Shown here: positions 30,617 to 58,719 of the stretch, in pieces
Position numbering within the stretch: the stretch's first letter is position 1
Layout of the letters: every line of letters starts with the position of its first letter
From: Sphingobacterium arenae
Lineage (GTDB): Bacteria; Bacteroidota; Bacteroidia; Sphingobacteriales; Sphingobacteriaceae
Assembly: GCF_014692505.1 (NCBI RefSeq)
Contig: NZ_JACNYK010000003.1
Location: 372,001-436,000, forward strand
Reading direction: 5' to 3'
DNA: 64,000 nucleotides
The notes under the pieces: generated by a model
What the model saw: only the letters and a program-made list of their open reading frames with translations
Database searches by the model: none
Told to the model about the DNA's origin: nothing
Translations under genes and position numbers: made by a program

Positions 30617-30647
30617 TTATTATTACGTGGCACGCAATATTCGACAA

Positions 30648-30693
30648 CGAACTCCCACATTTCTTGATAAATGCGGCAAAAAAATCGGTAAAC
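30648..30693 (-). repeat. Relic of the NTF2-gene leader module
   Basis: This stretch aligns with the segment CTCCCGCATTTCTCGG ... GCGGTAAAAAAATCGGTGAA found upstream of each of the four NTF2-like genes, but no NTF2 gene is attached. It runs straight into R element 2, preserving the leader-then-R order seen in complete units. Confidence 0.55.
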
Positions 30694-30775
30694 AAAAAAA
30701 TCCTGAAGCGGGGAACTCCAGGATTTTTAACTAACTAACCAATTATAAACCTAAATTATGAAGTACAGATATAAC
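30694..30775 (-). repeat. R element, copy 2
   Basis: The hairpin ATCCTGAAGC/ACTCCAGGAT is flanked by A7 and T5, followed (plus strand) by AACTAACTAACCAATTATAA and CCTAAATTATGAAGTAC. It belongs to the subtype whose minus strand has a TATATTTG/TATATCTG-like box about 40 nt before the hairpin. It lies 125 bp beyond the stop of the lipoprotein gene at 30900 and may terminate it. Confidence 0.8.
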
Positions 30776-30899
30776 GACAAAAGCTGTAGCTTTTGTATCT
30801 CATTGGTGTATATAGGACACATATTGACAAATGGATGACGTTTGTGCCTCCGTACTTGCTGCGTTAGCTGATACAGCGATTCAAACATTACTCTGATTT

Positions 30900-31889
30900 C
30901 TATTCTTCTCCCTCCGTTTCCTTTTCTTTAGTCAATACCTCAAGTATAGATTTAAGAACAGCTGTTCCTGATTCACTAGTTGCTTCTACAAATGCAGCAC
31001 GTTGTTCAGCCTTTATTTTAGCAGGGTTGACCTCAGTTACCACCACCTCTACTTCGTACAAGCCCGTATTGATGTTGATTGGTTGTACCTTTTGTTTTAC
31101 GACATCTTTCGTAACCACTTTTTCCGTAGTTGTTATTGAAGGTTTTGTTCCTTCACTCTTTGTGGTGATTTTGGTATCTGTTACATCGGTCGTATCTGTC
31201 TTGGTAATCACCGATTTAGGGAGTATAGGAATCCATCCACTATATATATTATTTGCTACCGTTGGCTTCCCAACTCTCACCATAGGAATATTCATAGATA
31301 CCGTCCTGATATCATTTAGTTTGTATTCCCCTGAAGCAATAGAAAGGCTTTTGACCTTAATCTCTACTGTGAGATCTACAAAACGTGAATTTCCTTTTAA
31401 TTTGGCAATGGAGTAATTGTAATTGAAGGAAGTACTATCAAGACGATATCTGAACGCCGTTTGATCCGCAGATTGAATAGGGATTAGTTTAAATGAAACC
31501 GCTGTGATGGGTTTTTCTTCTAACGATTGGGTACCTAATACAATGTCCCTTGTGAGCTCAAGTCCTGGCAAAGCGATTTCCTGTGATGTAATTCGAAAAT
31601 TCTCTGCTGAATTAAATGCTTTATACGAGCCCGTATATTTGAGCGCGTCTGATTTCAGTTTTTGCTGAACACTTTTAACCCCAAAGTCAATTAAAGTGGG
31701 ACCGATTGTCGCAGCAATTCCAGCAATACCAGCCATCTGATTTTTATTTGTTTTGGTTGATACAGGCCTAATCGTTAGTGTTGTTTTTTCAGACACTATC
31801 TTAGCATCTGCTGTACCGCTATAATTTCTTAAGCTACTACAGCTACTTCCCAAAATGAGGGTGGCAAAAAGTAAAATGTTAGTTTTCAT
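30900..31889 (-). CDS. Hypothetical lipoprotein paired with a trypsin-like protease
   Basis: A 329-residue lipoprotein (LGSSC, cysteine 17) that I cannot assign to a family. After the anchor there is a short glycine/alanine-rich hydrophobic stretch (MAGIAGIAATIGPTLIDFG), then a beta-rich body (PITAVSFKLIPIQ, FRYRLDSTSFNYNYS), then a threonine/lysine-rich linker near 235-265 and a helical, acidic C-terminus. It begins 4 bp after the stop of the protease gene, so the two are almost certainly co-translated. It could be a surface or periplasmic partner or inhibitor of the protease. Confidence 0.6.
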   Translation of the reverse strand: MKTNILLFATLILGSSCSSLRNYSGTADAKIVSEKTTLTIRPVSTKTNKNQMAGIAGIAATIGPTLIDFGVKSVQQKLKSDALKYTGSYKAFNSAENFRITSQEIALPGLELTRDIVLGTQSLEEKPITAVSFKLIPIQSADQTAFRYRLDSTSFNYNYSIAKLKGNSRFVDLTVEIKVKSLSIASGEYKLNDIRTVSMNIPMVRVGKPTVANNIYSGWIPILPKSVITKTDTTDVTDTKITTKSEGTKPSITTTEKVVTKDVVKQKVQPININTGLYEVEVVVTEVNPAKIKAEQRAAFVEATSESGTAVLKSILEVLTKEKETEGEE

Positions 31890-31893
31890 GAAT

Positions 31894-32832
31894 TTAAGAA
31901 GTTTGTTTTTTTACAGAGTTTAATATATAGTCAAATGAAATTGCAACAGCATTATTCGCACCATCGCCCTGACAGTGGAGACCTACTATTTTTATTTCAG
32001 AAGAATTATCGTTTACGATCCACAACGATCCAGAATCACCATCTAATGATATCGGCCGACTTTTGTCTTGAAATTCGGGGTCTAACATAATGCTAAGCCT
32101 AGGGGGATTTATCAACGATTGCCCTATTACAGTACCATATGTAAGACCTGTAGTTGTCCCCGTCTTTTTTACTTTGGTTTGCCCATAAATAGGATTTACG
32201 AATACGATCTGATTGATTATTCCTGGAAGACCGTTCAGAGATTGGGTTTGGTTAACTGCTGCTTCTATTCTAAAAAGCGCGTAATCAAGTGCTTGATCAA
32301 ATATTGTTGAGGCAATCCCAATACTGTTATCCGATGAAGGGTTTGGCAAATGCTGATATACTTTGTATTTGCCCGCATAATCTTGTCTAACGATCTCCGG
32401 AGGGACTGATCCAAATAGTACATGATAGTTTGTAATCCCTACATAGCTGCCATCCATGGTCAATATTGCTCCCAATGTTCCATAAGCGTATGGATCACTC
32501 ACAAAAAGTTCGCTCAGAATTTGCAATCCACCGATTAGAGGACGAATTCTAGTTCGTGGCGGCCATGATGCTCCCTGTAGTTTATTGTCAACAGCTACTA
32601 CATCCGTCTTAAATCCAGCAATTTCCTTCGGCAAGACAAGGTTGCTCTTTAATTTTTCTAGAGGTTCTTTCTTTTTGACATTAAACCGTATACATAATTC
32701 ATCCGTAATAATTCCATCAGTGAGCCTGACGCCAAATTCTATATCTGTGATATCTGGTCTGTAGGCATAACCTTTGATGGCCTTTGCTGCCTTTTTGTAG
32801 AGTTGCTTTTGTTTTCGAAGTGTTAGCTTCAT
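31894..32832 (-). CDS. Trypsin-like serine protease without signal peptide (Nal1-like layout)
   Basis: A 312-residue protein. The chymotrypsin-fold triad is readable: His137 in ITNYHVLFG, Asp183 in DQALDYALFRIE and Ser267 in SLDGDSGSLW. An N-terminal domain of about 90 residues (IEFGVRLTDGIITDELCIRF, DVVAVDNKLQ) is like that preceding the protease domain in Nal1-like putative serine proteases. There is no signal peptide, so it should act in the cytoplasm, which is unusual for this fold, yet its operon partner is a lipoprotein. It lies inside the repeat-rich island, bracketed by R elements 2 and 3. Confidence 0.75.
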   Translation of the reverse strand: MKLTLRKQKQLYKKAAKAIKGYAYRPDITDIEFGVRLTDGIITDELCIRFNVKKKEPLEKLKSNLVLPKEIAGFKTDVVAVDNKLQGASWPPRTRIRPLIGGLQILSELFVSDPYAYGTLGAILTMDGSYVGITNYHVLFGSVPPEIVRQDYAGKYKVYQHLPNPSSDNSIGIASTIFDQALDYALFRIEAAVNQTQSLNGLPGIINQIVFVNPIYGQTKVKKTGTTTGLTYGTVIGQSLINPPRLSIMLDPEFQDKSRPISLDGDSGSLWIVNDNSSEIKIVGLHCQGDGANNAVAISFDYILNSVKKQTS

Positions 32833-32909
32833 AGAATATTTAAAGATTTAGTTTGTAGGATGTTAATTTAGATAGCGTTATGATATTCTACAATACCTAG
32901 TGGTAGGTA

Positions 32910-32993
32910 TTTATTATTACAACAAGAACGAACACGTAGGCGATGGCGCTATTTACAAAACTTACCGTTAGAGAAATAGAAGAGCTGAAATAA
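32910..32993 (+). pseudogene. Relic of an Rpn nuclease gene (only both ends left)
   Basis: TATTACAACAAGAA-GAACACGTAGG corresponds to codons about 48-56 of the intact Rpn gene at 57393. After a short junction the sequence resumes with GAAATAGAAGAGCTGAAATAA, the last codons of that gene. About 700 bp are missing in between. R element 3 follows immediately, as it does after the intact gene. Confidence 0.65.
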
Positions 32994-32994
32994 T

Positions 32995-33080
32995 AAAAAA
33001 AATCCTGAAGCGGGGAGCTCCAGGATTTTTAACTAACTAACCAATTATAAACCTAAATTATGAAGTACAAATATAACGAT
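32995..33080 (-). repeat. R element, copy 3
   Basis: The hairpin AAAATCCTGAAGC.. GGATTTTT is followed by AACTAACTAACCAATTATAA and CCTAAATTATGAAGTAC. The minus strand shows a perfect -7 box TATATTTG about 42 nt before the hairpin and a T7 tail after it. It directly follows the Rpn relic. Confidence 0.85.
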
Positions 33081-33195
33081 AAGTATAGCAATATAGTGTC
33101 ACCTTAGTGTATAATTAACACATATTAACAAGTATCTCGACTTATATGCAATAATGAAAACATATTCGTAATTGGATTCGAATATAACAAAAATT

Positions 33196-33220
33196 CAAAG
33201 CCTGCATCCGCAGGCTTTGC
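33196..33220. terminator. Terminator of NTF2-like gene copy B
   Basis: CAAAGCCTGCATCCGCAGGCTTTG is a near-perfect hairpin 57 bp beyond the stop of the NTF2-like gene at 33277. The same hairpin plus CTAACTAAACTAAAC occurs after all four copies (also 35466, 43258 and 56590). Confidence 0.75.
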
Positions 33221-33276
33221 TAACTAAACTAAACACAGGGAGATATCTCACGACATGTCCCATATTGAAACAAAAA

Positions 33277-33711
33277 CTAAATCTTTTCTGGATAAGTCGT
33301 TTCCACCTTGCTCACCTTCCAACCGTCTTTGCTCTGATTTAAGGTAATATAATCTACGCGGGTGAAGTTGTCGAATGTCATGGTTGCTTTAGCTACGCAT
33401 ACCTTGCCGTCCTGCGACAGGATTTGGTAGCTGCTCTTACAGTCATATTTGTTACCCTTGTTGGCATTCAGATATTTAATGTATTCCTTTTTGCCCGCAC
33501 GGTCGTTGTTGTTCACGTTGCGGTACTGGAAATCATCCGTAAAAAGGAACTTGTTCAGCTCGATGCTGCCTAGGGTAACAGCTTCTAGGTATGTATTCAG
33601 AATCATGCTTGATTCCACATCTTTCAAAGGATTGGGCCTCTCCGAAGCAAAGGAGCTTAAGGATGTTACCATGATCAATGCAGCTGCGATAGTTTTCAAT
33701 GTCGTTTTCAT
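33277..33711 (-). CDS. Secreted NTF2-like/lumazine-binding-type protein, copy B
   Basis: A 144-residue protein with a cleavable signal peptide (IAAALIMVTSLSSFA). The body, with VESSMILNTYLEAV at the N-terminus and KVCVAKATMTFDNFTRVDYI to the C-terminus, fits the NTF2-like fold of the 'putative lumazine-binding' group. The function is unknown. One of four near-identical minus-strand copies. It has its own promoter (minus-strand TACTTTTG at about 33766-33773), a 70-bp leader and a dedicated hairpin terminator. This copy is three residues longer at the C-terminus (EKI) and carries unique substitutions such as DDFQYRN. Confidence 0.8.
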   Translation of the reverse strand: MKTTLKTIAAALIMVTSLSSFASERPNPLKDVESSMILNTYLEAVTLGSIELNKFLFTDDFQYRNVNNNDRAGKKEYIKYLNANKGNKYDCKSSYQILSQDGKVCVAKATMTFDNFTRVDYITLNQSKDGWKVSKVETTYPEKI

Positions 33712-33995
33712 ATCTGTAGTTTTTAATGTGAGGTATATTATTTTTTCTATTTCTTATTTGATATCTCAAAAGTAGGGCAGCAGACTTATTTACCGAATAA
33801 CGATTAGACCAAGCTCCCGCATTTCTCGGTAACTGCGGTAAAAAAATCGGTGAATGCAAATATCTACCTGTTTGTTCATGCCAAAAGGATTGCAAGCCCA
33901 TTGCCAAGTGTTCAAAACGTTGTTTTAGAGATATTTGTGTTTCTAGGGGGATTTCCAGTTGTTCACCGGCGAACAGCTTGTGTCCGGTAATGAAC

Positions 33996-34052
33996 AAAAA
34001 AATCCTGAAGTGGGGAGCTCCAGGATCTCTTAACTAACTAACCAATTGTAAA
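33996..34052 (-). repeat. R element, copy 4 (3' tail cut by a gene junction)
   Basis: The hairpin AAATCCTGAAGTGGGGAGCT.. AGGAT is followed by TAACTAACTAACCAATTGTAA, then the sequence switches to the stop region of the gene at 34055. Here R lies 2 bp beyond the stop of a minus-strand gene and can serve as its terminator. Confidence 0.8.
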
Positions 34053-34054
34053 CT

Positions 34055-34738
34055 TTATTTTAGAGAGATTTTATGAAGTGTTTTTACGATATGGCGTTTT
34101 TGATACCAGTCGTTGTACACCAGTTCGATCTCCTTCGGTTTAAAAGAACCAAAATCGACATCTCTGTAATTTTCCAACCGTTCTGCAAACTTCAGAGGTG
34201 TCTTTATTTGCTCCCGGAACCGAACAGCCGTAATATGCGCGGTAGTTAACCGGTATCTGGCGTCGATTGTCTGCTGTAATGCAGCAGCTTTAAAGTTATC
34301 TCTCAACTGATCCCTGAATCTTTCAAGTCCTTCGTTCAGCGGAAACCCTTGGATCATCACGGCCTCAGGAGAGGCAGATATCCCCTGAAAGTAAAGACCA
34401 ATATCCATTATATCTTTGGCACTTTGCTCAAAAAGGCGGATATATTTTGAAGGCTCTATCTGCCCGAGATTAAAACCGTCATAACACGAAATAATGGATA
34501 ATACCGTTACGTGCATATCTGGGCGCGGTTGATAATACTGCTCTTTGTCGATAACCATCAACTCCTGTTGAAAGCGAGCAATCGCTTCCTGAATATTATC
34601 GTTGGGTCTGATCACGACTGTTAAGCCTCGTCTTTTATCATTTTTGTCGTCTATTAACCGATCGATTTTATTGGTCCCATTTCGAATGTTGTCAATCGAT
34701 CTTGTATAGAGGTTATTATAAAGTTCTGTCAAGTTCAT
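34055..34738 (-). CDS. 2H phosphoesterase-superfamily protein (2'-5' RNA ligase-like)
   Basis: A 227-residue cytosolic protein with the two H-x-T signature motifs: HVT at residues 76-78 (PDMHVTVLS) and HIT at 168-170 (TTAHITAVRF), about 90 residues apart as the fold requires. 2H enzymes act on 2',5' or cyclic phosphodiester bonds in RNA or nucleotides; some remove cyclic-oligonucleotide signals or repair RNA. A long N-terminal helix precedes the core. Single-gene cargo between R4 and a run of gene fragments. Confidence 0.75.
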   Translation of the reverse strand: MNLTELYNNLYTRSIDNIRNGTNKIDRLIDDKNDKRRGLTVVIRPNDNIQEAIARFQQELMVIDKEQYYQPRPDMHVTVLSIISCYDGFNLGQIEPSKYIRLFEQSAKDIMDIGLYFQGISASPEAVMIQGFPLNEGLERFRDQLRDNFKAAALQQTIDARYRLTTAHITAVRFREQIKTPLKFAERLENYRDVDFGSFKPKEIELVYNDWYQKRHIVKTLHKISLK

Positions 34739-35036: not shown

Positions 35037-35039
35037 CTG

Positions 35040-35064: not shown

Positions 35065-35071
35065 CTTTTTT

Positions 35072-35220: not shown

Positions 35221-35289
35221 TAGCTGCTCTAGATTAGCCTTCACCGGAGCAAAGGTTAATCAATGACAGTAGTTCAGTAATAAACAAAT

Positions 35290-35370
35290 AAAAAATCCTG
35301 AAGCGGGGAGCTCCAGGATTTTTAACTAACTAACCAATTATAAACCTAATTATGAAGTACAAATATAACG
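35290..35370 (-). repeat. R element, copy 5
   Basis: The hairpin AAATCCTGAAGC.. GGATTTTT is followed by AACTAACTAACCAATTATAA and CCTAATTATGAAGTAC (one base shorter than other copies). The minus-strand TATATTTG box is conserved. It lies between the Fic fragment and the terminator of NTF2 copy A. Confidence 0.85.
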
Positions 35371-35465
35371 ATAAGTGCGGTAATATAGTGTCACCTTAGT
35401 GTATAATTAACACATATTAACAATTCCTTCGTCGTATATGCAGTATTTACGAATACAAAAAAAAC

Positions 35466-35490
35466 CAAAGCCTGCATCCGCAGGCTTTGC
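35466..35490. terminator. Terminator of NTF2-like gene copy A
   Basis: CAAAGCCTGCATCCGCAGGCTTTG hairpin 68 bp beyond the stop of the gene at 35558, followed by CTCACTAAACTAAAC. Same module as at 33196. Confidence 0.75.
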
Positions 35491-35557
35491 TCACTAAACT
35501 AAACATCGGGAATTATCTCACGACATGTCCCTATTGAAACAAAAATCTAAAACTCTT

Positions 35558-35983
35558 CTACGGATAAGTCGTTTCCACTTTGCTCACTTTCCAGCCGTCC
35601 TTTCCCTGGTTCAAGGTAATATAATCTACGCGGGTAAAATTGTCGAATGCCATTATTGCCTTGGCTACGCATACTTTGCCGTCCTGCGATAGGATCTGGT
35701 AGCTGCTTTCGCAGTCATATTGCATGCCTTTGTTGGCCTTTAGGTATTTGATGTATTCCTTTTTGCCTGCGCGATCATTGTTGTTCACGTTGCTGTACTG
35801 GAAATCATCTGCAAAAAGAAACTTATTCAGGTCGATGCTACCCACGGTAACCGCTTCTAGGTATGTATTCAGAATCATGCTTGATTCCACGTCTTTCAAA
35901 GGATTGGCTTTTTCCGAAGCAAACGAGCTTAGTGATGTAACCATGATCAAAGCTGCTGCGATAGTTTTTAATGTCGTTTTCAT
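35558..35983 (-). CDS. Secreted NTF2-like/lumazine-binding-type protein, copy A
   Basis: A 141-residue protein with a signal peptide (AAALIMVTSLSSFA). The N-terminal part matches copy B (VESSMILNTYLEAV), whereas the centre (ANKGMQYDC, VAKAIMAFDNF) matches copy C, so this copy is a mosaic. The minus-strand -7 box TACCTTTG and the leader with the GCATTTCTCGGTAACTGCGG palindrome are conserved upstream. A decayed Rpn gene lies divergently beyond the leader, as an intact one does for copy D. Confidence 0.8.
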   Translation of the reverse strand: MKTTLKTIAAALIMVTSLSSFASEKANPLKDVESSMILNTYLEAVTVGSIDLNKFLFADDFQYSNVNNNDRAGKKEYIKYLKANKGMQYDCESSYQILSQDGKVCVAKAIMAFDNFTRVDYITLNQGKDGWKVSKVETTYP

Positions 35984-36215
35984 ATCTGTAGTTTTTATGT
36001 GTTATGTATAATGTTTTTTCTATTTCTTATTTGATATCTCAAAGGTAGGGTGGATCGCAGATTTACCGAATAACGATTAGACCAAGCTCCCGCATTTCTC
36101 GGTAACTGCGGTAAAAAAATCGGTGAATGCATTTTCAATTCCTTTCTGTCCATGCCTCGGCGATCCATAGCCGTTTTTAAACGTTTATAAACGACTATAA
36201 ATAGAAGGGTAACAG

Positions 36216-36454
36216 CAATTACCTCCATGACATCTGCCTATGCAACAGGGATTCAGGGGGAATTTTAACGAACATCTTGGGGTTATTTATATCGAACCCC
36301 GAAGGGCTCTATCATGCCACAAAAAATAGATATATTTATGATAAATTGATTAATTTTACAAAAGGCGAATAGTAAACTAAACAAGGAGGAACGCGATATG
36401 TACGATGCAAGAGCTACCGGTTTATCGGCTGAAGAAATAGAAAAACTAAAATAA
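36216..36454 (+). pseudogene. Relic of an Rpn nuclease gene (multiply deleted)
   Basis: Segments of the intact gene at 57393 appear in order: CTCCATGACATCTG-CTATGCAAC, CGAACATCTTGGGGTTATTTA, ATTGATTAATTTTAC-AAAGGCGAA, then a jump to AAGGAGGAACGCGATATGTA, then GAGCTACCGGTTTATCGGC to the stop. There are frameshifts and two large deletions. Upstream it keeps the AACGTTTATAAACGACTATA leader of the intact gene and downstream R element 6. Confidence 0.75.
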
Positions 36455-36458
36455 TAAT

Positions 36459-36540
36459 AAAAAAATCCTGAAGCGGGGAGCCTCAGGATTTTTACTAACT
36501 AACCAATTATTAACCTAAATTATGAATTACTAAAATAACG
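36459..36540 (-). repeat. R element, copy 6
   Basis: AAATCCTGAAGC.. GGATTTTT is followed by ACTAACTAACCAATTATTAA and CCTAAATTATGAATTAC. It follows an Rpn relic 4 bp after its stop. Homology with copy 12 continues for about 200 bp downstream through 36735. Confidence 0.85.
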
Positions 36541-43239: not shown

Positions 43240-43257
43240 ATTGATACCTCAAAAAAA

Positions 43258-43282
43258 TCAAAGCCTGCGGATGCAGGCTTTG
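43258..43282. terminator. Terminator of NTF2-like gene copy C
   Basis: AAAGCCTGCGGATGCAGGCTTT hairpin 70 bp beyond the stop of the gene at 43353, followed by GCTAACTAAACTAAAC. Its loop is the reverse of that in copies A and B (CGGA versus TCCG), so the loop has been inverted or re-created. Confidence 0.75.
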
Positions 43283-43352
43283 CTAACTAAACTAAACATC
43301 TGGAATTATCTCACGACATGTCCCACTATTGAAACAAAAATCTAAAATTCTG

Positions 43353-43778: not shown

Positions 43779-44066
43779 ATCTGTAGTTTTTAATGTGATG
43801 TGTATATTATTTTTTCTATTTCTTATTTGATATCTCAAAGGTAGTGTGGTGGACAGATTTACCGAATAACGATTAGACCAAGCTCCCGCATTTCTCGGTA
43901 ACGGCGGTAAAAAAATCGGTGAATGCATTTATCTATTTGTTTGTTCATGCCAAAAGGATTGCAAGCCAACTGCCAAAGTGTTCAATTTGCTGTTTTGAAG
44001 GTGTTTGTGTTTTTTGAAGAGATTTCCGGCTGTTCAGTACCCGACAGGTGGTGTCCGGTACTGAAC

Positions 44067-45901: not shown

Positions 45902-46147
45902 AATTTTTCGAGATAAAAACTAATACTTGGAGCAACAATTGTTTGTTGACCGAATTAGTTTAGATTATTAATGAAATTTTAAAAATAGAAAAACACGCTA
46001 CGTGTAAAGTACACAGCGCATTGCTTAAGAACTAAGCTAGAAAAGGATATTATAACATTACAGTCATTCTCATCTGACAAATATAAAACAATTTTTCGGC
46101 ACCCTGTTTATTTTCAAAGGTAGTTTTTCATGTATTGTATCTACATG

Positions 46148-46214
46148 TTTTCTATTTCTTATTTGATATCCCAAAAGTAGGGTAGCAGGGTTATTTAGGT
46201 AACGATATCGTTAG
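46148..46214 (-). repeat. Relic of the NTF2-gene leader without its gene
   Basis: TTCTATTTCTTATTTGATAT, CCAAAAGTAGGG and TTATTTAGGTAACGAT match the leader of the NTF2-like copies, including the minus-strand -7 box TACTTTTG. The coding region and terminator are gone, while R element 8 still follows 40 bp later. The rest of the 45902-46429 gap shows nothing else recognisable. Confidence 0.6.
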
Positions 46215-46255
46215 TTAATTTGGGTGCAATAAGAATCATTCGCCACGCACAAAAC

Positions 46256-46337
46256 AAAAAATCCTGAAGCGGGGAGCCTCAGGATTTTTAACTAACTAAC
46301 CAATTATTAACCTAAATTATGAATTACTAAAATAACG
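46256..46337 (-). repeat. R element, copy 8
   Basis: AAATCCTGAAGC.. CAGGATTTTT is followed by AACTAACTAACCAATTATTAA and CCTAAATTATGAATTAC. The downstream homology with copies 6 and 12 (GTGCCTTTATTATTTTTG, TTTTTAACAAATCTTAACG) extends to about 46400, just before the membrane-protein gene at 46430. Confidence 0.85.
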
Positions 46338-46429: not shown

Positions 46430-47155
46430 ATGACTGATTTATCTATCCCCGACCTTTACAAGTTTTATCGCGATCAATTGTCTTATCAAGCACTGATAAA
46501 TGGTGGAGGCTATAAGAAGCACAGAAACCGGATACTGTGTGTTTTGATTCTTCCCCTAATTATTGTGTTTGTATTCGGGCTAAGAACTTATAACTATCCG
46601 ATACTTGGCAGTGAAAGAATGATCAATATGATTATTTTTATTGGATTGTATATCATCTACCTTATCGGAATACAATATTATTTCAAGTTCATCGACAAAA
46701 AGAAGGGGAAATGGCTTAATTCGCAGAAAAATCCGGAGCAGCTTCCCTTTCCAGAGTTTGTCTATAAACATCGCCATCTAGCGCTTAAAGAATATCTTAT
46801 GAAACATGGTGTAAGTACACCCGAACAATGGCAACACACTATTGAAGAGTTGGAAAAACACCGTAAGAAATCCTTAGAAGAAATACTATTTTTAATGGCC
46901 CTAATCGGTGGAGCACTGGGGCTGCTTAATGACGATATCAGAAATCTCTTGGTAGGAAATATTGGAGATGCGCCTCTGCAATCATGGATGTATATTTTAT
47001 TCGTGTCAGCTTTGATAATTCCAGTCTATAAATTATTATTACTATTTCGTAATCAAGATACCGGGAAATGGCCTATCTATAAGCAGATGGTCAATATACT
47101 CAAGACTACCCAACCACCATCCTCGCCGATGCCGTCCAAAGATACTCCGGGATAG
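46430..47155 (+). CDS. Hypothetical four-helix membrane protein with altered C-terminus
   Basis: A 241-residue protein with hydrophobic segments at about 33-50, 64-82, 150-168 and 188-207, and a charged loop (FKFIDKKKGKWLNSQKN) between the second and third. I do not recognise the family. The last 16 or so codons (TTQPPSSPMPSKDTPG) are not native: they are read from the antisense strand of a relic of the DUF3427 helicase gene at 47106-47209, so the original 3' end has been replaced by a junction. It could still be functional. Confidence 0.6.
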   Translation: MTDLSIPDLYKFYRDQLSYQALINGGGYKKHRNRILCVLILPLIIVFVFGLRTYNYPILGSERMINMIIFIGLYIIYLIGIQYYFKFIDKKKGKWLNSQKNPEQLPFPEFVYKHRHLALKEYLMKHGVSTPEQWQHTIEELEKHRKKSLEEILFLMALIGGALGLLNDDIRNLLVGNIGDAPLQSWMYILFVSALIIPVYKLLLLFRNQDTGKWPIYKQMVNILKTTQPPSSPMPSKDTPG

Positions 47156-47209
47156 ATTCTTCCAGCTTCCACTGAATAGACATCGGTTTCGATCCCGTAT
47201 GGCTTACGT
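47106..47209 (-). pseudogene. C-terminal relic of the DUF3427-type helicase gene
   Basis: About 104 bp aligns with the 3' end of the intact helicase gene, 58720-58825 (CCACCATC-TCGCCGATGCCG, CTTCCACTGAATAGACATCG, GATCCCGTATGGCTTACGT), including the stop codon. Everything upstream is missing. It overlaps the altered tail of the membrane-protein gene on the other strand. Confidence 0.72.
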
Positions 47210-49764: not shown

Positions 49765-49825
49765 CGCTATCACGTGTAGCACTTCCTACCTATACATCTT
49801 CCTCGTCTCTAGAAATAGCTCGATC

Positions 49826-50393
49826 AGCGGACCCCGCAGACGAATCTAAAAAAGCGGATGCTGTACTACGGCAGCAAACTGATTGCAGACCAGGCACCAA
49901 TTATCTCCATGACATCTGTCTATGTAACAGAGATTCACGCGAAGTTTTTTACGAACATCTTGGGTTTATTTATATCGAATTGATTAATTTTACCAAAGGC
50001 GAACAGGAACTGGCCGTTGATCTGGACAGGTGGCTGCATGTTCTGAAGAACATGTCCAAAATGGATAAGCTGCCTACCTATCTCCGTAAGCCGGTATTCG
50101 AAAAGCTCTTTGCTATTGCAGCATATACCAAGTTAAATAAGGAGGAACGCGATATGTATAATGCAAGTTTAAAGAATAAGTGGGATGCGGAGTCGATCCG
50201 CCAGACAGCCATCTTGGAGCAGAAAAAGGCGAGAAAGCAAGGCCTTGACGAGGGTCGGGAAGAAGGCCGGAAAGAAGGTCGGAAAGAAGGCGCTCTTGCT
50301 ATTGCTTTAAAATTGAAAAGCATGGATATGGCTGTGGAAGATATCGTCCAAGCTACCGGTTTATCAGTTGAAGAAATAGAAGAACTAAAATAA
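49826..50393 (+). pseudogene. 5'-truncated Rpn nuclease gene
   Basis: Homology to the intact gene starts at the TPQTNLKKRMLYYGSKLIAD part, then an in-block deletion of about 90 bp joins QAP to the LHDICLCN region, and from VNFTKGEQELAVDLDRWLH onward it is nearly identical to the C-terminus. An in-frame repeat of EGRKEGRKEG is expanded compared with the intact copy. The C-terminal frame from 49980 (137 codons) remains open, but the nuclease core is lost. R element 9 follows. Confidence 0.82.
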
Positions 50394-50397
50394 TAAC

Positions 50398-50457
50398 AAA
50401 AAATCCTGAAGCGGGGAGCTTCAGGATTTTTAACTAACTAACCAATTATTAACCTAT
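50398..50457 (-). repeat. R element, copy 9 (tail cut by a gene)
   Basis: AAATCCTGAAGC.. TTCAGGATTTTT is followed by AACTAACTAACCAATTATTAA and CCTA, and then the sequence changes to the stop region of the gene at 50454. It follows an Rpn relic on its left, and a minus-strand gene begins to its right, so it terminates both. Confidence 0.85.
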
Positions 50458-50972
50458 ATAATTTTATAGTTGAATATCTCGACGTATGGATTTCCGCTTA
50501 TCCCCAACAATTCACAAAAGGCGGGTTCGGTTTTTCTACCCCTTCTTTTCAGATCTCTTATTTTCTCGATGAATTTTTCATCTTTTGACTTGATAATTTG
50601 ATGCTCCTTAACCATATGTAGATATCCTGTCTGTTTCTCTGTCTCCGTAGTTGAAGCATAGATCTCCAGAGGAAGGTTTTCGATTTCGAAGTTGCAAACC
50701 AGATTTTTGTCAGTATGTCTTATGGCGAACTTTGTATGCGTTGCAAACAGTCGGATCAATAGCTTTTCCAACGACTCAAAATTTTCTGTTTGTAAGATAA
50801 TATCCAGATCACTTCTTTCAATATCAATATTGATAGGAATCGTTCCAACAACAAGGGGGCGGTAGCCCTTCAGTTTTTCGAGAATTTGATATTTCGTTAT
50901 GACGTCGTAGGCGCTACGTTGTCTTGCATTCCCTCTTTGTAAATAGCTTATATCTTTAAAATCAATCTCCAT
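50454..50972 (-). CDS. DUF4269 nucleotidyltransferase-like protein
   Basis: A 172-residue cytosolic protein. The nucleotidyltransferase-like core has GTIPINIDIERSDLDIILQT, with acidic residues D-x-D for metal binding, preceded by the usual helix with LKGYRPLVVG. This matches the DUF4269 family, whose substrates are unknown. Its 3' end abuts R element 9 and its 5' end a 78-bp repeated segment, so the gene looks like a single-cargo insert. Confidence 0.72.
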   Translation of the reverse strand: MEIDFKDISYLQRGNARQRSAYDVITKYQILEKLKGYRPLVVGTIPINIDIERSDLDIILQTENFESLEKLLIRLFATHTKFAIRHTDKNLVCNFEIENLPLEIYASTTETEKQTGYLHMVKEHQIIKSKDEKFIEKIRDLKRRGRKTEPAFCELLGISGNPYVEIFNYKII

Positions 50973-51902: not shown

Positions 51903-51911
51903 CGGATATCC

Positions 51912-52761: not shown

Positions 52762-52825
52762 CGAAATATTTCTAGTTTTATATCCTTCCGGGACACGTCC
52801 AAGAGGCGAGGAGTGGAGCTGCCAT

Positions 52826-52911
52826 AAAAAAAATCCTGAAGCGGGGAGCCTCAGGATTTTTAACTAACTAACCAATTATAAACCTAAATTATGAAGTACA
52901 AATATAACGAC
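52826..52911 (-). repeat. R element, copy 10
   Basis: AAATCCTGAAGC.. CAGGATTTTT is followed by AACTAACTAACCAATTATAA and CCTAAATTATGAAGTAC; the minus-strand TATATTTG box is intact. Together with 95 bp on its left side (GAGGCGAGGAGTGGAGCTGC) it is duplicated as copy 11. Confidence 0.85.
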
Positions 52912-54117: not shown

Positions 54118-54191
54118 AATTATTGTCGATAAAATATTGTTTGCGGCCCAGTTCAGCCATACGTTGCTTGAGCTGTTCAGTGATTGTATTG
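54118..54191 (-). pseudogene. N-terminal relic of the DUF3427-type helicase gene
   Basis: The minus strand encodes TITEQLKQRMAELGRKQYFI and DNN, then a stop. It aligns with residues 10-30 of the intact helicase (LITEQIKLRLAELDRKQYFI). Only this short N-terminal scrap remains, next to the 3' end of the following gene. Confidence 0.68.
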
Positions 54192-54199
54192 GTTTTTTG

Positions 54200-54961
54200 T
54201 CATATAATATATTTCTTAAATATTTTTGATTCTTTTAATGACTCCATCTCTTCGGTATTTGGACAATCATTTATGTTTAGGAATGATTTAAAGTCTTGCG
54301 TGTTATCGCAAAAGATGATGTCAAAAGTTAGGCGATTATTTCCGTACAATCCCCTATGAATCATATTAGCTGAAAAAACGAGTAAATCGCCTCGGTCCAT
54401 TTGTATAATTTTACCGCGTTGTAAATTATCACTCGGTTTTCTTCCGTTCAAAGAAAGCCTCGTTTCGAATTCTTCATCTGTATCCCATTCCTTATGAGTA
54501 GAAGGAATTAATTCTATCCCTAATTCCCGTCTTAATGGAATTCTAAAATGAACAATATTTTCTGTTTTGATTTTTTGCTTCTGCTCGTTGATAGACCTTC
54601 CCGTATATTGGATATCCCGATGCCAATAATTATGCTGATTTTGATTAAAAGGTTCAAAAAATAATTGCGTGTTTAAAAATAATGCTTCATCCGGAAAAAT
54701 TTCACCGACAATTTTTTCAATATTTCTTTTTGAGATAAATTTAAAAATGAAAAGTCTTTCTTCCTCATTTATATAGCTGCTCGAGGTAATGCTGTGACTA
54801 TTTATGAGCCCATTTTTGTAATCCTTTTGATTATTACTTAACCATATGTTGTGAAATTTTTCTAATATATATTCTAATTTGAGCAATTCATTTTCTTTAA
54901 AGAAGTTTTTGAAGACAACATATCCTTGTGTAGCATAAATATTTGAAGTCATTATTTTCAT
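54200..54961 (-). CDS. Phytanoyl-CoA dioxygenase-family protein (2)
   Basis: A 253-residue Fe(II)/2-oxoglutarate oxygenase. The H-x-D motif lies in HNYWHRDIQYTGRS and the distal histidine in SANMIHRGLYGNNR, with the Arg of the same strand as oxoglutarate ligand. Codon use is strikingly AT-rich compared with flanking genes, suggesting separate acquisition. The substrate is unknown. No close similarity to the PhyH protein at 45122 beyond motifs. Confidence 0.78.
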   Translation of the reverse strand: MKIMTSNIYATQGYVVFKNFFKENELLKLEYILEKFHNIWLSNNQKDYKNGLINSHSITSSSYINEEERLFIFKFISKRNIEKIVGEIFPDEALFLNTQLFFEPFNQNQHNYWHRDIQYTGRSINEQKQKIKTENIVHFRIPLRRELGIELIPSTHKEWDTDEEFETRLSLNGRKPSDNLQRGKIIQMDRGDLLVFSANMIHRGLYGNNRLTFDIIFCDNTQDFKSFLNINDCPNTEEMESLKESKIFKKYII

Positions 54962-55142
54962 GTTTTAGCAACAGTGATATCAATATTAATCTTAAAATAT
55001 CATTTTTCAAAATTTTTCGAGTCGTCGTGATTGTGCATTATTGCTTAATAAAGCGAGAAGCCTTGCACTAGAATCGCCAGTAGCTGATGAGCCGGCTTAG
55101 TGTTTTACAGTGTTACGGATTAAACCGTCTTTTTTATGGTAT

Positions 55143-55246
55143 TCATTCCTCCCATCCCGGACCATTCTTCCGTTTTAGATAATCCTTCATGACCTCATTG
55201 TATCGCTCCGCTCCAGAAGAAAAAACACCTACGTAGATCAATGTAT
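55143..55246 (-). pseudogene. C-terminal scrap of an unidentified gene
   Basis: The minus-strand reading LIYVGVFSSGAERYNEVMKD, then YLKRKNGPGWEE and a stop, is clean for about 33 codons and joins the duplicated KilA-N segment on its right. The family was not recognised. The rest of 54962-55142 holds nothing I can name. Confidence 0.4.
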
Positions 55247-55354
55247 AAGCCAACCAAACTCAGGAAGAAAGACTTCTGCCCAATTATGCAGTGGCATCGA
55301 AATCTTTTTAGTTTTATATCCTTCTGGGAAAGAGGCGAGGAGCGGAGCTGCCAT
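55247..55354 (-). pseudogene. Duplicated KilA-N gene start and upstream flank
   Basis: ACCAAACTCAGGAAGAAAGA, CTTCTGCCCAATTATGC and GGCATCGAAATCTTTTTAGT repeat 52716-52825 with about 90 percent identity. It contains the first 18 codons of the KilA-N frame and its upstream region, and passes into R element 11 at the same point as the original passes into copy 10. Confidence 0.72.
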
Positions 55355-55391
55355 AAAAAAAATTCTGAAGCGGGGAGCCTCAGGATTTTTT
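55355..55391 (-). repeat. R element, copy 11 (hairpin only)
   Basis: AAAATTCTGAAGC.. CAGGATTTTTT, with the AACTAACTAACC tail missing because the stop region of the gene at 55390 follows at once. It now serves as that gene's terminator. Confidence 0.8.
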
Positions 55392-56040
55392 AAGGATTTG
55401 CACTAGGATACATAAATGATGTATCACTTAATCTTTTGATTATTCGTTTACCCCTATTATCTTGATACAAAAAAGAAACACCCCCGCTTGTTCCATAGAG
55501 GTCAATTTTGTTGAGCAATTCTATATCCAATCCAAGCCACATCGCATTAAATATACTTAGTGTATCGCCATGAGATACGATGATTATATTTTCTTCCTCA
55601 TTAGTGATGATCTCTTCATAGAACGGTAGTAATCTTTTCCAAACATCATATCTCGATTCCGCATCAGCGAAGCACTTATCATAAACCATCAATTCTTCTT
55701 GTTCTATATTGTCCTTGAGCCATTGTACAGATTTGCCGATAGCTGCTCCAAGCCCTCGTTCTTTTAGCGATGCTGTTAATTTAGGAAACAGCCCTAATTT
55801 TTTTCCTACAATTTCAGCTGTTTGTACCCCTCTCTTCAGAGTAGAAGAATAGATAACGAAGTTTTCATGGTGAATCGTTTGCTTCAAATGACTAGAAATA
55901 TTTTCCGCTAAGCGCTTCCCTTTTTCAGAAAGTTCCCAATCTGTCCATGAACCAACCATTCCATTGGTATGATGCACAGATTCGGGATGTTGAATAGTTA
56001 TAATATTTTTTCTTTTTATAGCTGTCGTGTTTGATTGCAT
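55390..56040 (-). CDS. Histidine phosphatase-family protein with atypical N-terminal motif
   Basis: A 216-residue cytosolic protein. The phosphatase fold is clear in WTDWELSEKGKRLAENIS, VIYSSTLKRGVQTAEIVGKK and the C-terminal NIIIVSHGDTLSIF (second catalytic His). The first catalytic motif, normally R-H-G, reads IQHPES. The His is kept, but the Arg and Gly are replaced, as in a subgroup with Q-H-x-x-S. Activity may be altered, or the substrate may be a different phosphoester. Its stop codon overlaps the tail of R element 11. Confidence 0.78.
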   Translation of the reverse strand: MQSNTTAIKRKNIITIQHPESVHHTNGMVGSWTDWELSEKGKRLAENISSHLKQTIHHENFVIYSSTLKRGVQTAEIVGKKLGLFPKLTASLKERGLGAAIGKSVQWLKDNIEQEELMVYDKCFADAESRYDVWKRLLPFYEEIITNEEENIIIVSHGDTLSIFNAMWLGLDIELLNKIDLYGTSGGVSFLYQDNRGKRIIKRLSDTSFMYPSANP

Positions 56041-56123
56041 TTTCTACTCATGTTTTAAACGATGAATCACAATGTAGTGAATTTTATGTTTATGTTTGTG
56101 TATTTATTAACAAACGTTGAACG

Positions 56124-56549
56124 ATGGACATTAAAGAACTAGATCTTTCTAATATTGACAGTACTATTCGAGAAAAAATTATAGCATTATATAGGCAGCT
56201 AAGTCCCGGTAAAAAATATCAGGATCTTTCTCAAGTCTTGCGGGTGGACAATGGCGTTTATCTGATAGGAGGTTTTCAAGACGGGAATCTAGTTGGTATT
56301 GCGTCAATGGCTGTCTACTGTGTTATATCCGGACATAAAGGCTGGATAGAAGATGTTGTCGTTGATAATGCATATCGAGGTAAAGGAATCGGTAGGAAAT
56401 TGATAGAACATCTGCTCGACTATTCTAGTAAAATGAATTTGACGGAAGTGCTTTTATTTACCGAAAGCCACCGTACTGCTGCACGCAAACTTTATGAAAA
56501 TCTTGGTTTTAGAATAAAGGATAGTTCTATCTATGTATTGAAGCATTAA
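56124..56549 (+). CDS. GNAT-family N-acetyltransferase
   Basis: A 141-residue acetyltransferase. Motif A for acetyl-CoA binding is VVVDNAYRGKGIGRKLIEHL (the R-G-K-G-I-G loop), and motif B is AARKLYENLGFRIKDSS. The substrate is unknown. It is transcribed divergently from the histidine phosphatase, 83 bp apart, and is followed by the terminator of NTF2-like copy D. Confidence 0.85.
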   Translation: MDIKELDLSNIDSTIREKIIALYRQLSPGKKYQDLSQVLRVDNGVYLIGGFQDGNLVGIASMAVYCVISGHKGWIEDVVVDNAYRGKGIGRKLIEHLLDYSSKMNLTEVLLFTESHRTAARKLYENLGFRIKDSSIYVLKH

Positions 56550-56589
56550 TACATAGTTTGCAGGAGTTCCTGCTATTATAGCAAACAAA

Positions 56590-56612
56590 GAAAGCCTGCA
56601 TTTGCAGGCTTT
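56590..56612. terminator. Terminator of NTF2-like gene copy D and of the GNAT gene
   Basis: AAAGCCTGCATTTGCAGGCTTT hairpin followed by GCTAACTAAACTAAAC. It lies between the convergent GNAT and NTF2-like genes. The stem is conserved with the other three copies while the loop differs, so the pairing is being kept. Confidence 0.75.
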
Positions 56613-56670
56613 GCTAACTAAACTAAACGTCGGGAGGTATCACATGCTACCCCCACTAAACAAAAGTCTT

Positions 56671-57108
56671 CTATGGATAAGTCGTTTCCACCTTGCTTAC
56701 TTTCCAGCCGTCCTTTCCCTGGTTCAGCGTGATGTAGTCTACGCGGGTGAAATTGTCGAATGCTATCGTTGCTTTGGCTACGCATACCTTTCCGTCCTGC
56801 GATAGTATCTCGTAGCTGCTCTTGCAGTCATATTTGTTACCCTTGTTGGCCTTCAGGTATTTGATGTATTCCTTTTTGCCCGCGCTGTCATTATTGTTCA
56901 CGTTGCTGTACTGGAAATCATCTGCGAAAAGAAACTTGTTCAGGTCGATGCTACCCACGGTAACAGCATCCATATAGGAACCAATTACGATGTCCGATTC
57001 TACATTTTTCAGAGGATTGGCTTTTTCCGAAGCAAAGGAGCTTAGGGATGTTACCATGATCAATGCTGCTGGGATAGTTCTCCATGTCGTTTTCAATGTC
57101 GTTCTCAT
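56671..57108 (-). CDS. Secreted NTF2-like/lumazine-binding-type protein, copy D
   Basis: A 145-residue protein from ATG 57108. The signal peptide contains a local duplication of 12 bp (MRTTLKTTWRTIPAALIMVT instead of MRTTLKTIAAALIMVT). The N-terminal type matches copy C (VESDIVIGSYMDAV), the centre matches copy B (ANKGNKYDC, VAKATIAFDNF). A divergent intact Rpn gene lies beyond the shared leader. The minus-strand -7 box TACCTTTG is at 57166-57173. Confidence 0.8.
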   Translation of the reverse strand: MRTTLKTTWRTIPAALIMVTSLSSFASEKANPLKNVESDIVIGSYMDAVTVGSIDLNKFLFADDFQYSNVNNNDSAGKKEYIKYLKANKGNKYDCKSSYEILSQDGKVCVAKATIAFDNFTRVDYITLNQGKDGWKVSKVETTYP

Positions 57109-57165
57109 ATCTGTAGTTTTTAATGTGTTATGTATAATATTTTTTCTATTTCTTATTTGATATCT

Positions 57166-57350
57166 CAAAGGTATTGCGAGATGAAGATTTACCGAATAAC
57201 GATTAGACCAAGCTCCGGCATTTCTCGGTAATTGCATTAAAAAAATCGGTGAACGTTGTTTTAAAAATAGTCAGCAGCCGTTTTTAAACGTTTATAAACG
57301 ACTATAAGCGTTTGTTTACCGGCTTTTAGAGGTGCTACTGCCTAAGTTTG
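57166..57350. promoter_or_regulatory. Divergent leader between the NTF2-like and Rpn genes
   Basis: On the minus strand TACCTTTG (57166-57173) serves the NTF2 copy; on the plus strand TAAGTTTG (57343-57350) precedes the Rpn start by 43 bp. Between them are the palindromic block GCATTTCTCGGTAATTGCAT and the CGTTT-rich motif TTTTTAAACGTTTATAAACG, both also found at 36080-36200. The arrangement is the complete form of the module. Confidence 0.5.
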
Positions 57351-57392
57351 CTTCGCAATTATCAGAATTATGTACATCAAAATTTACTTATT

Positions 57393-58283
57393 ATGAAGCA
57401 ACAGGCAACACCTGTATTTATCGATCCGACGACCGACTTCGGTTTTAAGCGTATATTCGGAACCGAGACGAACAAGGATCTATTGATCTCCTTTCTCAAC
57501 GAGCTGTTCCGGGGGCGGAAGCTTATCGAGAACCTCTATTACAACAAGAATGAACACGTAGGTGACACCGAAGAAGTCGGTACGGTCATTTTTGACCTGA
57601 CGTGCACGGCAAGCGACGGTGAACAGTTCATTATCGAGGTACAGCGGACCCCGCAGACGAATCTAAAAAAACGTATGCTTTACTACGGCAGCAAACTGAT
57701 TGCAGACCAGGCGCCCAAAGGTAACCGGCGTGGATGGGGCTATACGATCAGCGAGGTTTATGTGATTGTGCTAATGGATGGCTTTCCCATGCCTGATGGC
57801 AACAGTAGCACGGAATATCTCCATGACATCTGTCTGTGCAACAGAGATTCCGGCGAAGTTTTTTACGACCATCTTGGGTTTATTTACATAGAATTGGTTA
57901 ATTTTACCAAAGGCGAACAGGAACTGACGGTTGATCTGGACAGGTGGCTGCATGTTTTGAAAAACATGTCCAAAATGGATAAGCTGCCGACCTATCTCCG
58001 TAAGCCAGTTTTTGAGAAGCTGTTCGCCATTGCGGCATATACTAAGTTAAATAAGGAGGAACGCGATATGTACAATGCAAGTTTAAAGAATAAGTGGGAT
58101 GCGGAGTCGATCCGCCAGACGGCTATTTTAGAACAGGAAAAGGCGAGAGCAAAGGGCCTTGAAGAAGGTCGGAAAGAAGGCGCTCTTGCTATTGCTCTAA
58201 AACTGAAAAACATGGATATGGCTGTGGAAGATATCGTCCAAGCTACCGGTTTATCGGCTGAAGAAATAGAAGAACTAAAATAA
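57393..58283 (+). CDS. rpn: Rpn-family recombination-promoting nuclease (PD-(D/E)XK)
   Basis: A 296-residue protein starting at ATG 57393 (MKQQATPVFIDPTTDFGFKR), the normal family start; the TTG at 57348 is upstream leader. The nuclease core shows FGTETNKDLLISFLNELF, VGTVIFDLTCTASDGE and QFIIEVQR (Asp and E-x-Q/R of the PD-(D/E)XK site). The C-terminal coiled coil ends in EGRKEGALAIALKLKNMDMA. Rpn proteins cut DNA and raise recombination. Three deleted relics of this gene occur at 32910, 36216 and 49826. An R element follows the stop in each case. Confidence 0.88.
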   Translation: MKQQATPVFIDPTTDFGFKRIFGTETNKDLLISFLNELFRGRKLIENLYYNKNEHVGDTEEVGTVIFDLTCTASDGEQFIIEVQRTPQTNLKKRMLYYGSKLIADQAPKGNRRGWGYTISEVYVIVLMDGFPMPDGNSSTEYLHDICLCNRDSGEVFYDHLGFIYIELVNFTKGEQELTVDLDRWLHVLKNMSKMDKLPTYLRKPVFEKLFAIAAYTKLNKEERDMYNASLKNKWDAESIRQTAILEQEKARAKGLEEGRKEGALAIALKLKNMDMAVEDIVQATGLSAEEIEELK

Positions 58284-58287
58284 TAAC

Positions 58288-58370
58288 AAAAAAATCCTGA
58301 AGCGGGGAGCTTCAGGATTTTTACTAACTAACCAATTATTAACCTAAATTATGAATTACTGAAATACTAT
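58288..58370 (-). repeat. R element, copy 12
   Basis: AAATCCTGAAGC.. TTCAGGATTTTT is followed by ACTAACTAACCAATTATTAA and CCTAAATTATGAATTAC. It follows the intact Rpn gene by 4 bp and is paired with copy 6 (homology to about 58565). Confidence 0.85.
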
Positions 58371-58442
58371 CAATTCCTATGCCTTCTTATTTTTGTAAAG
58401 CCCTTTTAACAAATTTTAACGAAATATAATTCTAACAGTATA

Positions 58443-58694
58443 ATGCAGTATTTCATTGTGAATAAATATCTCCGCTGTTGTAAGTATGCTCGCATATTTA
58501 TATTAATCGTTATCTTTATTTTTTTGTATAATATGGTATCCGTAATCACTTCTATAGCAGTTATCGCACTTGGATTGATGGCAAAATATGCCAGTCAAGA
58601 CGGTTGGTTACCTTTACGTAAGTACTGGAGTTATATTTTTATAGGTGGGCTGATTAGCCTGGTCATAGATATTTATCGGTACTTAAAATCATAA
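58443..58694 (+). CDS. Small membrane protein of the repeat module
   Basis: An 83-residue protein with two hydrophobic helices (IFILIVIFIFLYNMVSVITS and SYIFIGGLISLVIDIYRYL) and a basic N-terminus with a CC pair (YLRCCKYAR). The family was not recognised. A decayed copy with the same start (MQYFITNKYLRCC) follows R element 6 (36615-36735), and another scrap (GATGGCAAAATATGTCAGTC) lies at about 34866. Position and repeats suggest it is a real component, possibly an accessory of the Rpn module. Confidence 0.55.
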   Translation: MQYFIVNKYLRCCKYARIFILIVIFIFLYNMVSVITSIAVIALGLMAKYASQDGWLPLRKYWSYIFIGGLISLVIDIYRYLKS

Positions 58695-58719
58695 GTTAAA
58701 GCGTAACGGAAGAGCCAGA

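Follow-up and report, generated by a model that had tools for sequence, protein, structure and literature searches.

What is the short hairpin that recurs in a single orientation through a stretch of the Sphingobacterium arenae genome, and how have the genes lying between its copies come together? We addressed this question in a stretch of 64,000 nucleotides (nt), referred to as the window (assembly GCF_014692505.1, contig NZ_JACNYK010000003.1, positions 372,001 to 436,000). The interval 30.6-58.7 kb of the window contains 11 copies of a hairpin of 31 bases, designated R, and four minus-strand genes for NTF2-like proteins (33277, 35558, 43353, and 56671), each with a conserved upstream 'leader'. 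A preliminary description had portrayed this interval as a hot spot in which repeated units of these modules multiply and exchange other genes, referred to as cargo. The repeated units proved to be real, R and the NTF2-like genes keeping one orientation. We propose, with a probability of about 80%, that the locus is a hypervariable array combining an NTF2-fold gene and a multicopy predicted gene for a small RNA (sRNA) of ~70 nt, in fixed orientation, with exchanged cargo.

Architecture and distribution of R

On the forward strand, the R hairpin is adjoined by CTAACCAATTATWAACCTAAATTATGA. On the opposite strand, read leftwards, the order is a promoter-like motif, TCATAATTTAGGTTWATAATTGGTTWG, a stem-loop, and a T-tract, and R is best read in this direction, as a predicted sRNA gene of ~70 nt ending in an intrinsic terminator. 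The preliminary description had taken R in the other direction; promoter motifs and the longer T-tracts are found on the strand that it did not choose. The 27-mer next to R has eight matches in the window, seven of them inside the interval, and none in 100 dinucleotide shuffles. The conserved stretch is kept in eight of the 11 interval copies, one of these with a 1-nt deletion. The three other copies (33999, 50400, and 55359) have an intact hairpin and a lost or damaged conserved stretch. Genome-wide, 22 sites match the conserved stretch with at most three mismatches, 19 of them exactly, though their hairpin stems differ.

Among 276 distinct copies, a stem-loop follows the conserved stretch in 269 (12-22 in five mononucleotide shuffles), 225 of these 269 have four or more T among the eight bases that follow (2-7 in five shuffles), and the loop contains CCC in 253 of the 276 (0-1 in five shuffles). 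Stem covariation was assessed with 38 aligned copies. All nine base pairs were changed on both sides, a result equalled by 17 of 500 shuffles, and the number of cells changed on both sides was 49 versus 14.5 in shuffles, none of the 500 reaching this value. R combines an unstructured conserved 5' stretch with an intrinsic terminator and is present in several paralogous copies per genome; in one of three examples folded, the lowest-energy structure includes a weak 5' helix.

Promoter-like motifs were counted in the regions upstream of 273 R copies and compared with 20 shuffles. The sigma54-like motif [TC]GGCA[CT]-N5-TTG was present upstream of 42 copies (shuffles: mean 0.25, maximum 1), TAnnTTTG upstream of 93 (mean 20, maximum 31), with 66 ends at -4/-5, and CGTTATA upstream of 51 (mean 2.9, maximum 7), with 31 ends at -8. 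Each motif shows a preferred distance to the 26-mer of the conserved stretch. Since motifs of different geometry agree in this respect, transcription is predicted to start at or just before the 26-mer, a position obtained with the spacing rules that hold for sigma54 and for the Bacteroidota promoter box. The genome encodes sigma54. Inside the interval, all eight copies with the conserved stretch have an upstream motif, which is sigma54-like for 36498, 46295, and 58327 (as for 18355, outside the interval), TATATTTG for 33036, 35329, 44107, and 52867, and CGTTAT only for 30734.

A covariance model detected 5-41 R copies in each of 36 genomes of the genus, including the genome studied here, and a weak match in one of 23 other genomes. 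Our genome has 27 matches to the R1 model, 14 of them outside the array. Of 295 genomes drawn from across the class, 13 matched the R model. Strong matches were confined to the same family (three genomes of the same genus and four of another genus), weak ones came from one more genome of the family and from five genomes of other families, and two genomes belonging to yet another genus of this family gave no match. The other-family loci (L385-L388 and L390) each display a single weak match, with a shortened or altered 5' stretch and a terminator-like hairpin, which suggests a wider and more variable R family. The exact 26-mer is present in at least 115 stretches of named genomes, the 80 matches listed being from Sphingobacterium, Mucilaginibacter, Parapedobacter, Olivibacter, and 'bacterium A37T11', and in 35 stretches of viral contigs. 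A match in a Tenacibaculum phage was dropped, as no hairpin was seen by eye behind it, and a search of a plasmid collection returned no R match. In the complete genome G006, 27 of 31 R copies are oriented opposite to replication fork movement, as are 24 of 30 in G043, the fork direction being deduced from GC skew at 20 samples per genome and the skew of G043 being patchy at ~1.5-3.4 Mb. Counted by clusters, the orientation bias is 9 to 0 in G006 (p 0.002) and 10 to 4 in G043 (p 0.09).

The viral copies raise the first alternative. In four of 11 viral loci scanned with ARAGORN, a transfer RNA (tRNA) call ends at most ~10 bases upstream of the R-like element (a tRNA-Asp for L229 and L242, a tRNA of unresolved type for L243 and L244); the scan gave no tRNA call directly upstream of R in the other seven. 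R might therefore be a module at the 3' end of noncoding transcripts, acting in their processing, stability, or termination and not as a regulator, the promoter-borne copies being short by-products. Promoter-like motifs, however, stand a few bases ahead of many copies, which would leave the module as the entire transcript, and we consider this alternative unlikely. By eye, some R-like elements of viral contigs are flanked by tRNAs on both sides and show no clear T-tract. In seven loci from named genomes (L104 being from Mucilaginibacter), R appeared by eye to lie behind a tRNA 3' end; these were set aside, ARAGORN having called no tRNA there.

NTF2-like genes and the array in related species

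The four NTF2 units begin, as the preliminary description had it, with the same terminator hairpin, AAAGCCTGC...GCAGGCTTT, except that the loop of the hairpin at 43260-43281 is inverted (GGAT versus ATCC). The TAnnTTTG box of the leader reads into the NTF2-like gene, and the leader is therefore probably, as judged by eye, the promoter and 5' untranslated region of this gene. Leader remnants are present at 46145 and, by eye, at ~30640, in agreement with two units reported to survive as leader plus R.

All 31 full-length NTF2 copies examined are open, truncated copies being excluded. The ratio of nonsynonymous to synonymous divergence (dN/dS) has a median of 0.09 and a maximum of 0.22 (dS was usable for 283 of 465 pairs), and the four genes of the window differ from each other by dS values of 0.42-0.79 under purifying selection. 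These values indicate old, maintained genes, at odds with the idea that the units are recent duplications. The NTF2 tree clusters by genome (15 label changes versus 22 in shuffles) and also contains clear pairs from different species, one of which joins the 56671 copy to a G051 copy (100/99). For the predicted NTF2 fold, the best model had a mean predicted local distance difference test (pLDDT) score of 80.7, two of the five models being below 50. Among PDB structures, it is matched best by NTF2-like proteins (E 1.3e-6), and residues 1-23, modelled with low confidence, resemble a signal peptide by eye.

Related genomes, denoted by G and a number, carry the same modules. In G051, G046, G049, G013, G007, and G019, NTF2 and R keep the same relative orientation and the cargo is reordered; G043 and G006 harbor more distant versions. 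The left-flank gene c20, at position 351216 of the window's contig (C13), is common to G013, G046, and G051, which places the variable region at ~351 kb to more than 434 kb of the contig, C13 ending ~5 kb to the right of the window. The array spans about 80 kb or more and extends to about -20 kb left of the window, with a twelfth R at 18355, so that the limits 30640-58700 initially assigned to it are too narrow. The variable region contains SusC genes at C13:357566 and 381831.

Across the window and the six genomes with reordered cargo, 63 open reading frame (ORF) families were found in at least two species and 29 in at least three, flank genes included. Of the interval's 22 cargo ORFs, nine have homologues in other arrays. 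Blocks of the window are 92-98.7% identical to their counterparts (98.7% and 95.1% in G049, 98.3% and 95.7% in G051, 95.5% in G013, and 94.3% in G046). For comparison, a single 12-kb control region gave long matches of 80-84% identity in G051, G046, G049, G013, G007, and G019. G051 is close to G046 (94.6% over 23 kb) and to G013 (94.8% over 3.6 kb), and sharing among these three genomes is therefore no evidence of transfer. Single accessory and defence-type genes appear to be acquired, lost, and passed from species to species, and the junctions are often near gene ends. The reordered cargo, the flank gene shared with three relatives, and the cargo identity far above background support the proposal of a hot spot that multiplies modules and exchanges cargo. 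In the relatives' genomes, the units do not occur at unrelated places devoid of shared boundaries, and the presence of homologous arrays in other assemblies makes an assembly artefact unlikely.

Several observations weigh against the array of sRNA genes and exchanged cargo that we propose. After a simple sorting, 85 of the 273 upstream regions contain none of the motifs that were searched for. Conservation of the 26-mer was imposed by the search pattern in the named-genome and viral sets and in the sets of 273 and 276 copies, and less so in the three-mismatch search of our genome and the covariance-model search of genomes. Stem-loops were present in 26 of 32 viral copies and T-rich ends in 23; CCC loops were seen in only 15. 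Pairing of the 26-mer with translation starts was evaluated for 259 starts, taken as the most upstream ATG of long ORFs in 400 kb of the genome. Duplex energies lie in the shuffle range, with 19 sites at or below -12 kcal/mol (shuffle mean 13; six of 60 shuffles had as many) and 55 at or below -10 kcal/mol (shuffle mean 42; seven of 60), and start-pairing is therefore unsupported. Contiguous 12- and 13-base matches to the 26-mer exceeded shuffles (27 versus 9 and 20 versus 2.5, respectively) because of damaged R copies, and matches outside R copies were few (five places). The excess identity of the cargo rests on one control region, a 263-base piece of which reached 89-93%. Finally, it may be no more than a region that tolerates change.

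The features of the window are listed in Table 1. Cargo genes of the interval match Pfam-type models for amidohydrolase, Rrf2, DoxX, FUSC, OsmC, TraB/GumN, DUF4269, KilA-N, erythromycin esterase, histidine phosphatase, and GNAT proteins. PhyH matches were above the cut-off at 54200 and below it at 45122. With PADLOC models, three of ten window proteins matched (mREase_IV with 775 bits, PDC-S07, and PDC-S22); Rpn did not. The phospholipase D (PLD)/helicase and NUDIX genes to the right of the interval also adjoin R in G051. A 107-base piece of the 3' end of the restriction/helicase gene is duplicated within the array (47103-47209 and 58717-58823, 94% identity), and G051 carries a longer duplicate (1280156-1281118). 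Within the window, the variable region includes a SusC-type receptor gene (9831-12818) and an extracytoplasmic function (ECF) sigma/FecR pair (28708-30562), adjoined by an ORF of 1,118 amino acids (25183-28539).

Table 1. Predicted features of the window (positions in the window; R start, first base of the R hairpin).
Feature	Position	Strand	R start	Details
R sRNA gene, outside interval	18310-18386	-		twelfth copy, R at 18355; sigma54-like box
R sRNA gene	30690-30765	-	30697	hairpin 30697-30727; conserved stretch 30735-30761; CGTTAT box upstream
R sRNA gene	32990-33067	-	32999	TATATTTG/CGTTAT box
NTF2 unit	33189-33998	-		terminator 33197-33218; NTF2-like gene 33277-33711; promoter/leader; ~150-bp spacer
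R hairpin, damaged conserved part	33999-34029	-	33999	stop of 2'-5' RNA ligase-like gene 25 bases beyond
2'-5' RNA ligase-like gene	34055-34738	-		below Pfam cut-offs
R sRNA gene	35283-35359	-	35292	conserved stretch with 1-nt deletion; TATATTTG/CGTTAT box
NTF2 unit	35458-36455	-		terminator 35467-35488; NTF2-like gene 35558-35983; leader; Rpn remnant 36208-36409 (+)
R sRNA gene	36453-36529	-	36462	sigma54-like box AGGCAC-N5-TTG
NTF2 unit	43250-44060	-		inverted-loop terminator 43260-43281; NTF2-like gene 43353-43778; leader; ~150-bp spacer
R sRNA gene	44061-44138	-	44070	TATATTTG/CGTTAT box
R sRNA gene	46249-46326	-	46258	sigma54-like box; leader remnant 46145-46197 on left
Decayed Rpn	49825-50393	+		open ORF 49980-50393 (137 amino acids)
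R hairpin, damaged conserved stretch	50391-50460	-	50400	abuts stop of DUF4269 gene 50454-50972
R sRNA gene	52821-52898	-	52830	TATATTTG/CGTTAT box
Cargo block	54186-55390	-		PhyH-like gene 54200-54961 up to hairpin; 98.3% identity to G051
Cargo block	55355-56552	.	55359	hairpin 55359-55389; His_Phos gene 55390-56040 (-); GNAT gene 56124-56549 (+); 95.5-95.7% identity to G013/G051
Fullest unit	56582-58476	-	58291	terminator 56591-56612; NTF2-like gene within ORF 56671-57237; leader; intact Rpn 57348-58283 (+); R sRNA gene 58282-58358 with sigma54-like box
Right side	58720-62246	-		type IV restriction-like PLD/helicase gene (mREase_IV model); NUDIX gene

Junctions, Rpn, and the route of shuffling

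Blocks shared between arrays stop close to genes. In six arrays, the shared sequence that holds the 2'-5' RNA ligase-like gene begins at about the stop codon and runs to 31-64 bases upstream of the start, with several different left neighbours, and the 3' end of the histidine phosphatase gene (c5) is joined to four different left neighbours across five species. By eye, the hairpin of the latter gene is chimeric in the window, reduced to its right half in G046, and inverted in G007 (C14), oddities that would suit template switching or recombination at short palindromes. In the NTF2 terminator at 43260-43281 and in this G007 hairpin, the loop is inverted and the stem unchanged, a possible sign of template switching at palindromes. 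Linkage was broken for 29 of 41 single-copy pairs at hairpins versus 400 of 2135 at other positions; before the single-copy filter, it was broken for 169 of 231 pairs at R, 116 of 124 at bare hairpins, and 945 of 3456 at control positions, the pairs in all these counts not being independent. A stricter control was provided by gene 3' ends. Close to hairpins, 33 of 39 pairs were broken, compared with 28 of 40 at middle range and 96 of 133 at gene ends remote from any hairpin. Gene ends distant from hairpins break about as often, and a special role of the hairpin as breakpoint is therefore unsupported. Selection against junctions inside genes suffices to explain the pattern.

The same data bear on the possibility that R is a recombination site (integron-attC-like or other), the units being cassettes moved by a recombinase acting on the hairpin. 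The shared orientation of the array copies, the high-identity blocks that stop a few bases from the hairpin (55355, 55390, and 58285), the altered hairpins and the four left neighbours at the histidine phosphatase gene, and the excess of breaks at hairpins would all be accommodated. This reading is nonetheless improbable, as gene ends far from hairpins are broken about equally, RNA features account for the conservation of R, and 14 of the 27 R1 model matches of the genome lie outside the array. In addition, the genome contains only three tyrosine recombinases (PF00589 matches on contigs C12 and C14, none on C13), and this search identified no integron integrase near the array. Inspection by eye revealed no GTTRRRY/RYYYAAC pair of attC-type core boxes.

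Rpn sequence is present at three sites, which corrects the preliminary description: an intact copy (57348-58283), a decayed copy (49825-50390) covering parts of residues 86-298, and a small remnant (36208-36409). The intact protein matches PF12784 (PDDEXK_2) over residues 27-258 (240 bits, E 3e-71) and, by eye, has charged C-terminal repeats. The open C-terminal fragment at 49980-50393 might have a function similar to that of the short antitoxin form known from the Rpn family (PMC10327210). The preliminary description had invoked possible help from the Rpn nuclease; in a stronger form of this idea, Rpn would drive the duplication and uptake of modules, with R as its substrate or partner. Rpn ends directly before R in several arrays, the inverted loop at 43260 and the inverted hairpin in G007 suit template switching, and overexpression of Rpn in E. 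coli raises RecA-independent recombination, for which a template-switch model is put forward (PMC5350276). Against this role, decay has affected two of the three Rpn sequences in the window, the two Rpn matches on contig C1 of the genome have no R model match on their contig, and later work presents Rpn as an anti-phage toxin-antitoxin and not as a conventional transposase (PMC10327210). Rpn is present in the array regions of the window, G051, G046, G049, and G007. It was not found in the array regions fetched from G013, G043, G022, G006, and G019 or in a second G046 region, the rest of those genomes not having been searched, and G013 and G019 share shuffled cargo nevertheless. We judge an Rpn-driven process to be slightly less probable than recombination at R as a dedicated site.

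The idea that R is the 5' leader or attenuator of the gene to its right, as its initial orientation implied, can hardly be maintained: the forward sequence of R ends in ...CCTAAATTATGAA, resembling a start codon region, but several copies read ATGAATTACTAA, a three-codon ORF, the right-hand genes vary and face both directions, and promoter motifs and longer T-tracts are on the opposite strand.

Ordinary recombination combined with gene-end joining would provide the simplest explanation of the array. DNA from relatives would recombine with the repeated NTF2/R modules, imported DNA would also be joined at gene ends by end-joining or template switching, and selection would keep the arrangements that preserve transcription units and remove junctions located inside genes, at a locus most likely tolerant and often rearranged. 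Sequence analysis supports directly the sRNA architecture, the promoter-like geometry, stem covariation, the distribution of R, and the reordering and excess identity of the cargo, from which expression, regulatory action, and the route of recombination are inferred.

Possible action of R and comparison with known systems

Judging from their architecture, intact R copies would produce RNAs acting in trans, most likely through the single-stranded 26-nt 5' stretch, either by pairing or as a protein-binding site. SusC leaders were considered as carriers of the 27-mer and rejected, the best match being 19 of 27 bases among the 30 of 56 SusC matches examined. A more specific and tentative possibility is that R is a family-wide RNA regulator. 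Its 26-nt stretch might be near-invariant because a dedicated partner reads it, either a protein or an RNA site shared widely, promoters of the sigma54-like, housekeeping-like, and CGTTATA types might feed different signals into one output, phage copies behind tRNA genes might feed or titrate the same partner, and the array might reshuffle sRNA dosage together with defence and accessory genes.

Much of the regulatory-RNA literature that we found for Bacteroidota concerns gut Bacteroides. A multicopy RNA with a conserved 26-nt element, several promoter classes, and viral copies would offer a direct handle on its binding partner. The array itself documents, in nature, how species exchange genes one by one at a single locus, on a contig that has no tyrosine recombinase. 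It also calls for caution, since a repeat that resembles a recombination site can be an RNA gene.

A literature search limited to open-licence papers turned up no such RNA family among the entries listed; by analogy, FopS of Bacteroides would be the closest system, and its architecture agrees with that of R. FopS/GibS are paralogous sRNAs of about 65-70 nt, 14 of them in B. thetaiotaomicron, in which a single-stranded conserved 5' part is followed by an intrinsic terminator; occurrence in a phage is also reported, as is repression of susC messages by the 5' stretch, which pairs at the start codon (PMC11697453). R shares the multiple copies, the size (predicted to be ~70 nt), the conserved 5' part followed by an intrinsic terminator, and the phage or viral copies. 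R differs in having several classes of promoter motif, in contrast to the canonical promoter of FopS, and in that strong model matches are confined to one bacterial family among the genomes searched. Rfam scans, made with a copy of the database in which a FopS model is unconfirmed, detected no family reaching its gathering score in the window and nothing named FopS among the sub-threshold matches at R loci. Weak matches in E-value scans of five and six R loci (HrrF, BTnc005, PyrR, and others) were below gathering scores and were taken as chance.

The Rpn of the window resembles the Rpn/PDDEXK_2 family in its PF12784 match and charged C-terminal repeats; it departs from it in that only one of three sequences is intact and the putative action on R is unsupported. 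As in chromosomal (super)integrons, a long run of small accessory genes is accompanied by repeated hairpins in one orientation, but the hairpin belongs to a dispersed sRNA family, and the cargo lies in both orientations, often with several genes between hairpins. The array is also akin to genomic hot spots and defence islands, with which it shares a recurrent locus, exchanged accessory genes, several defence-type genes, and Rpn. Unlike typical examples of these, it has no tyrosine recombinase on its contig and is studded with conserved predicted sRNA genes and NTF2-fold genes in a fixed orientation.

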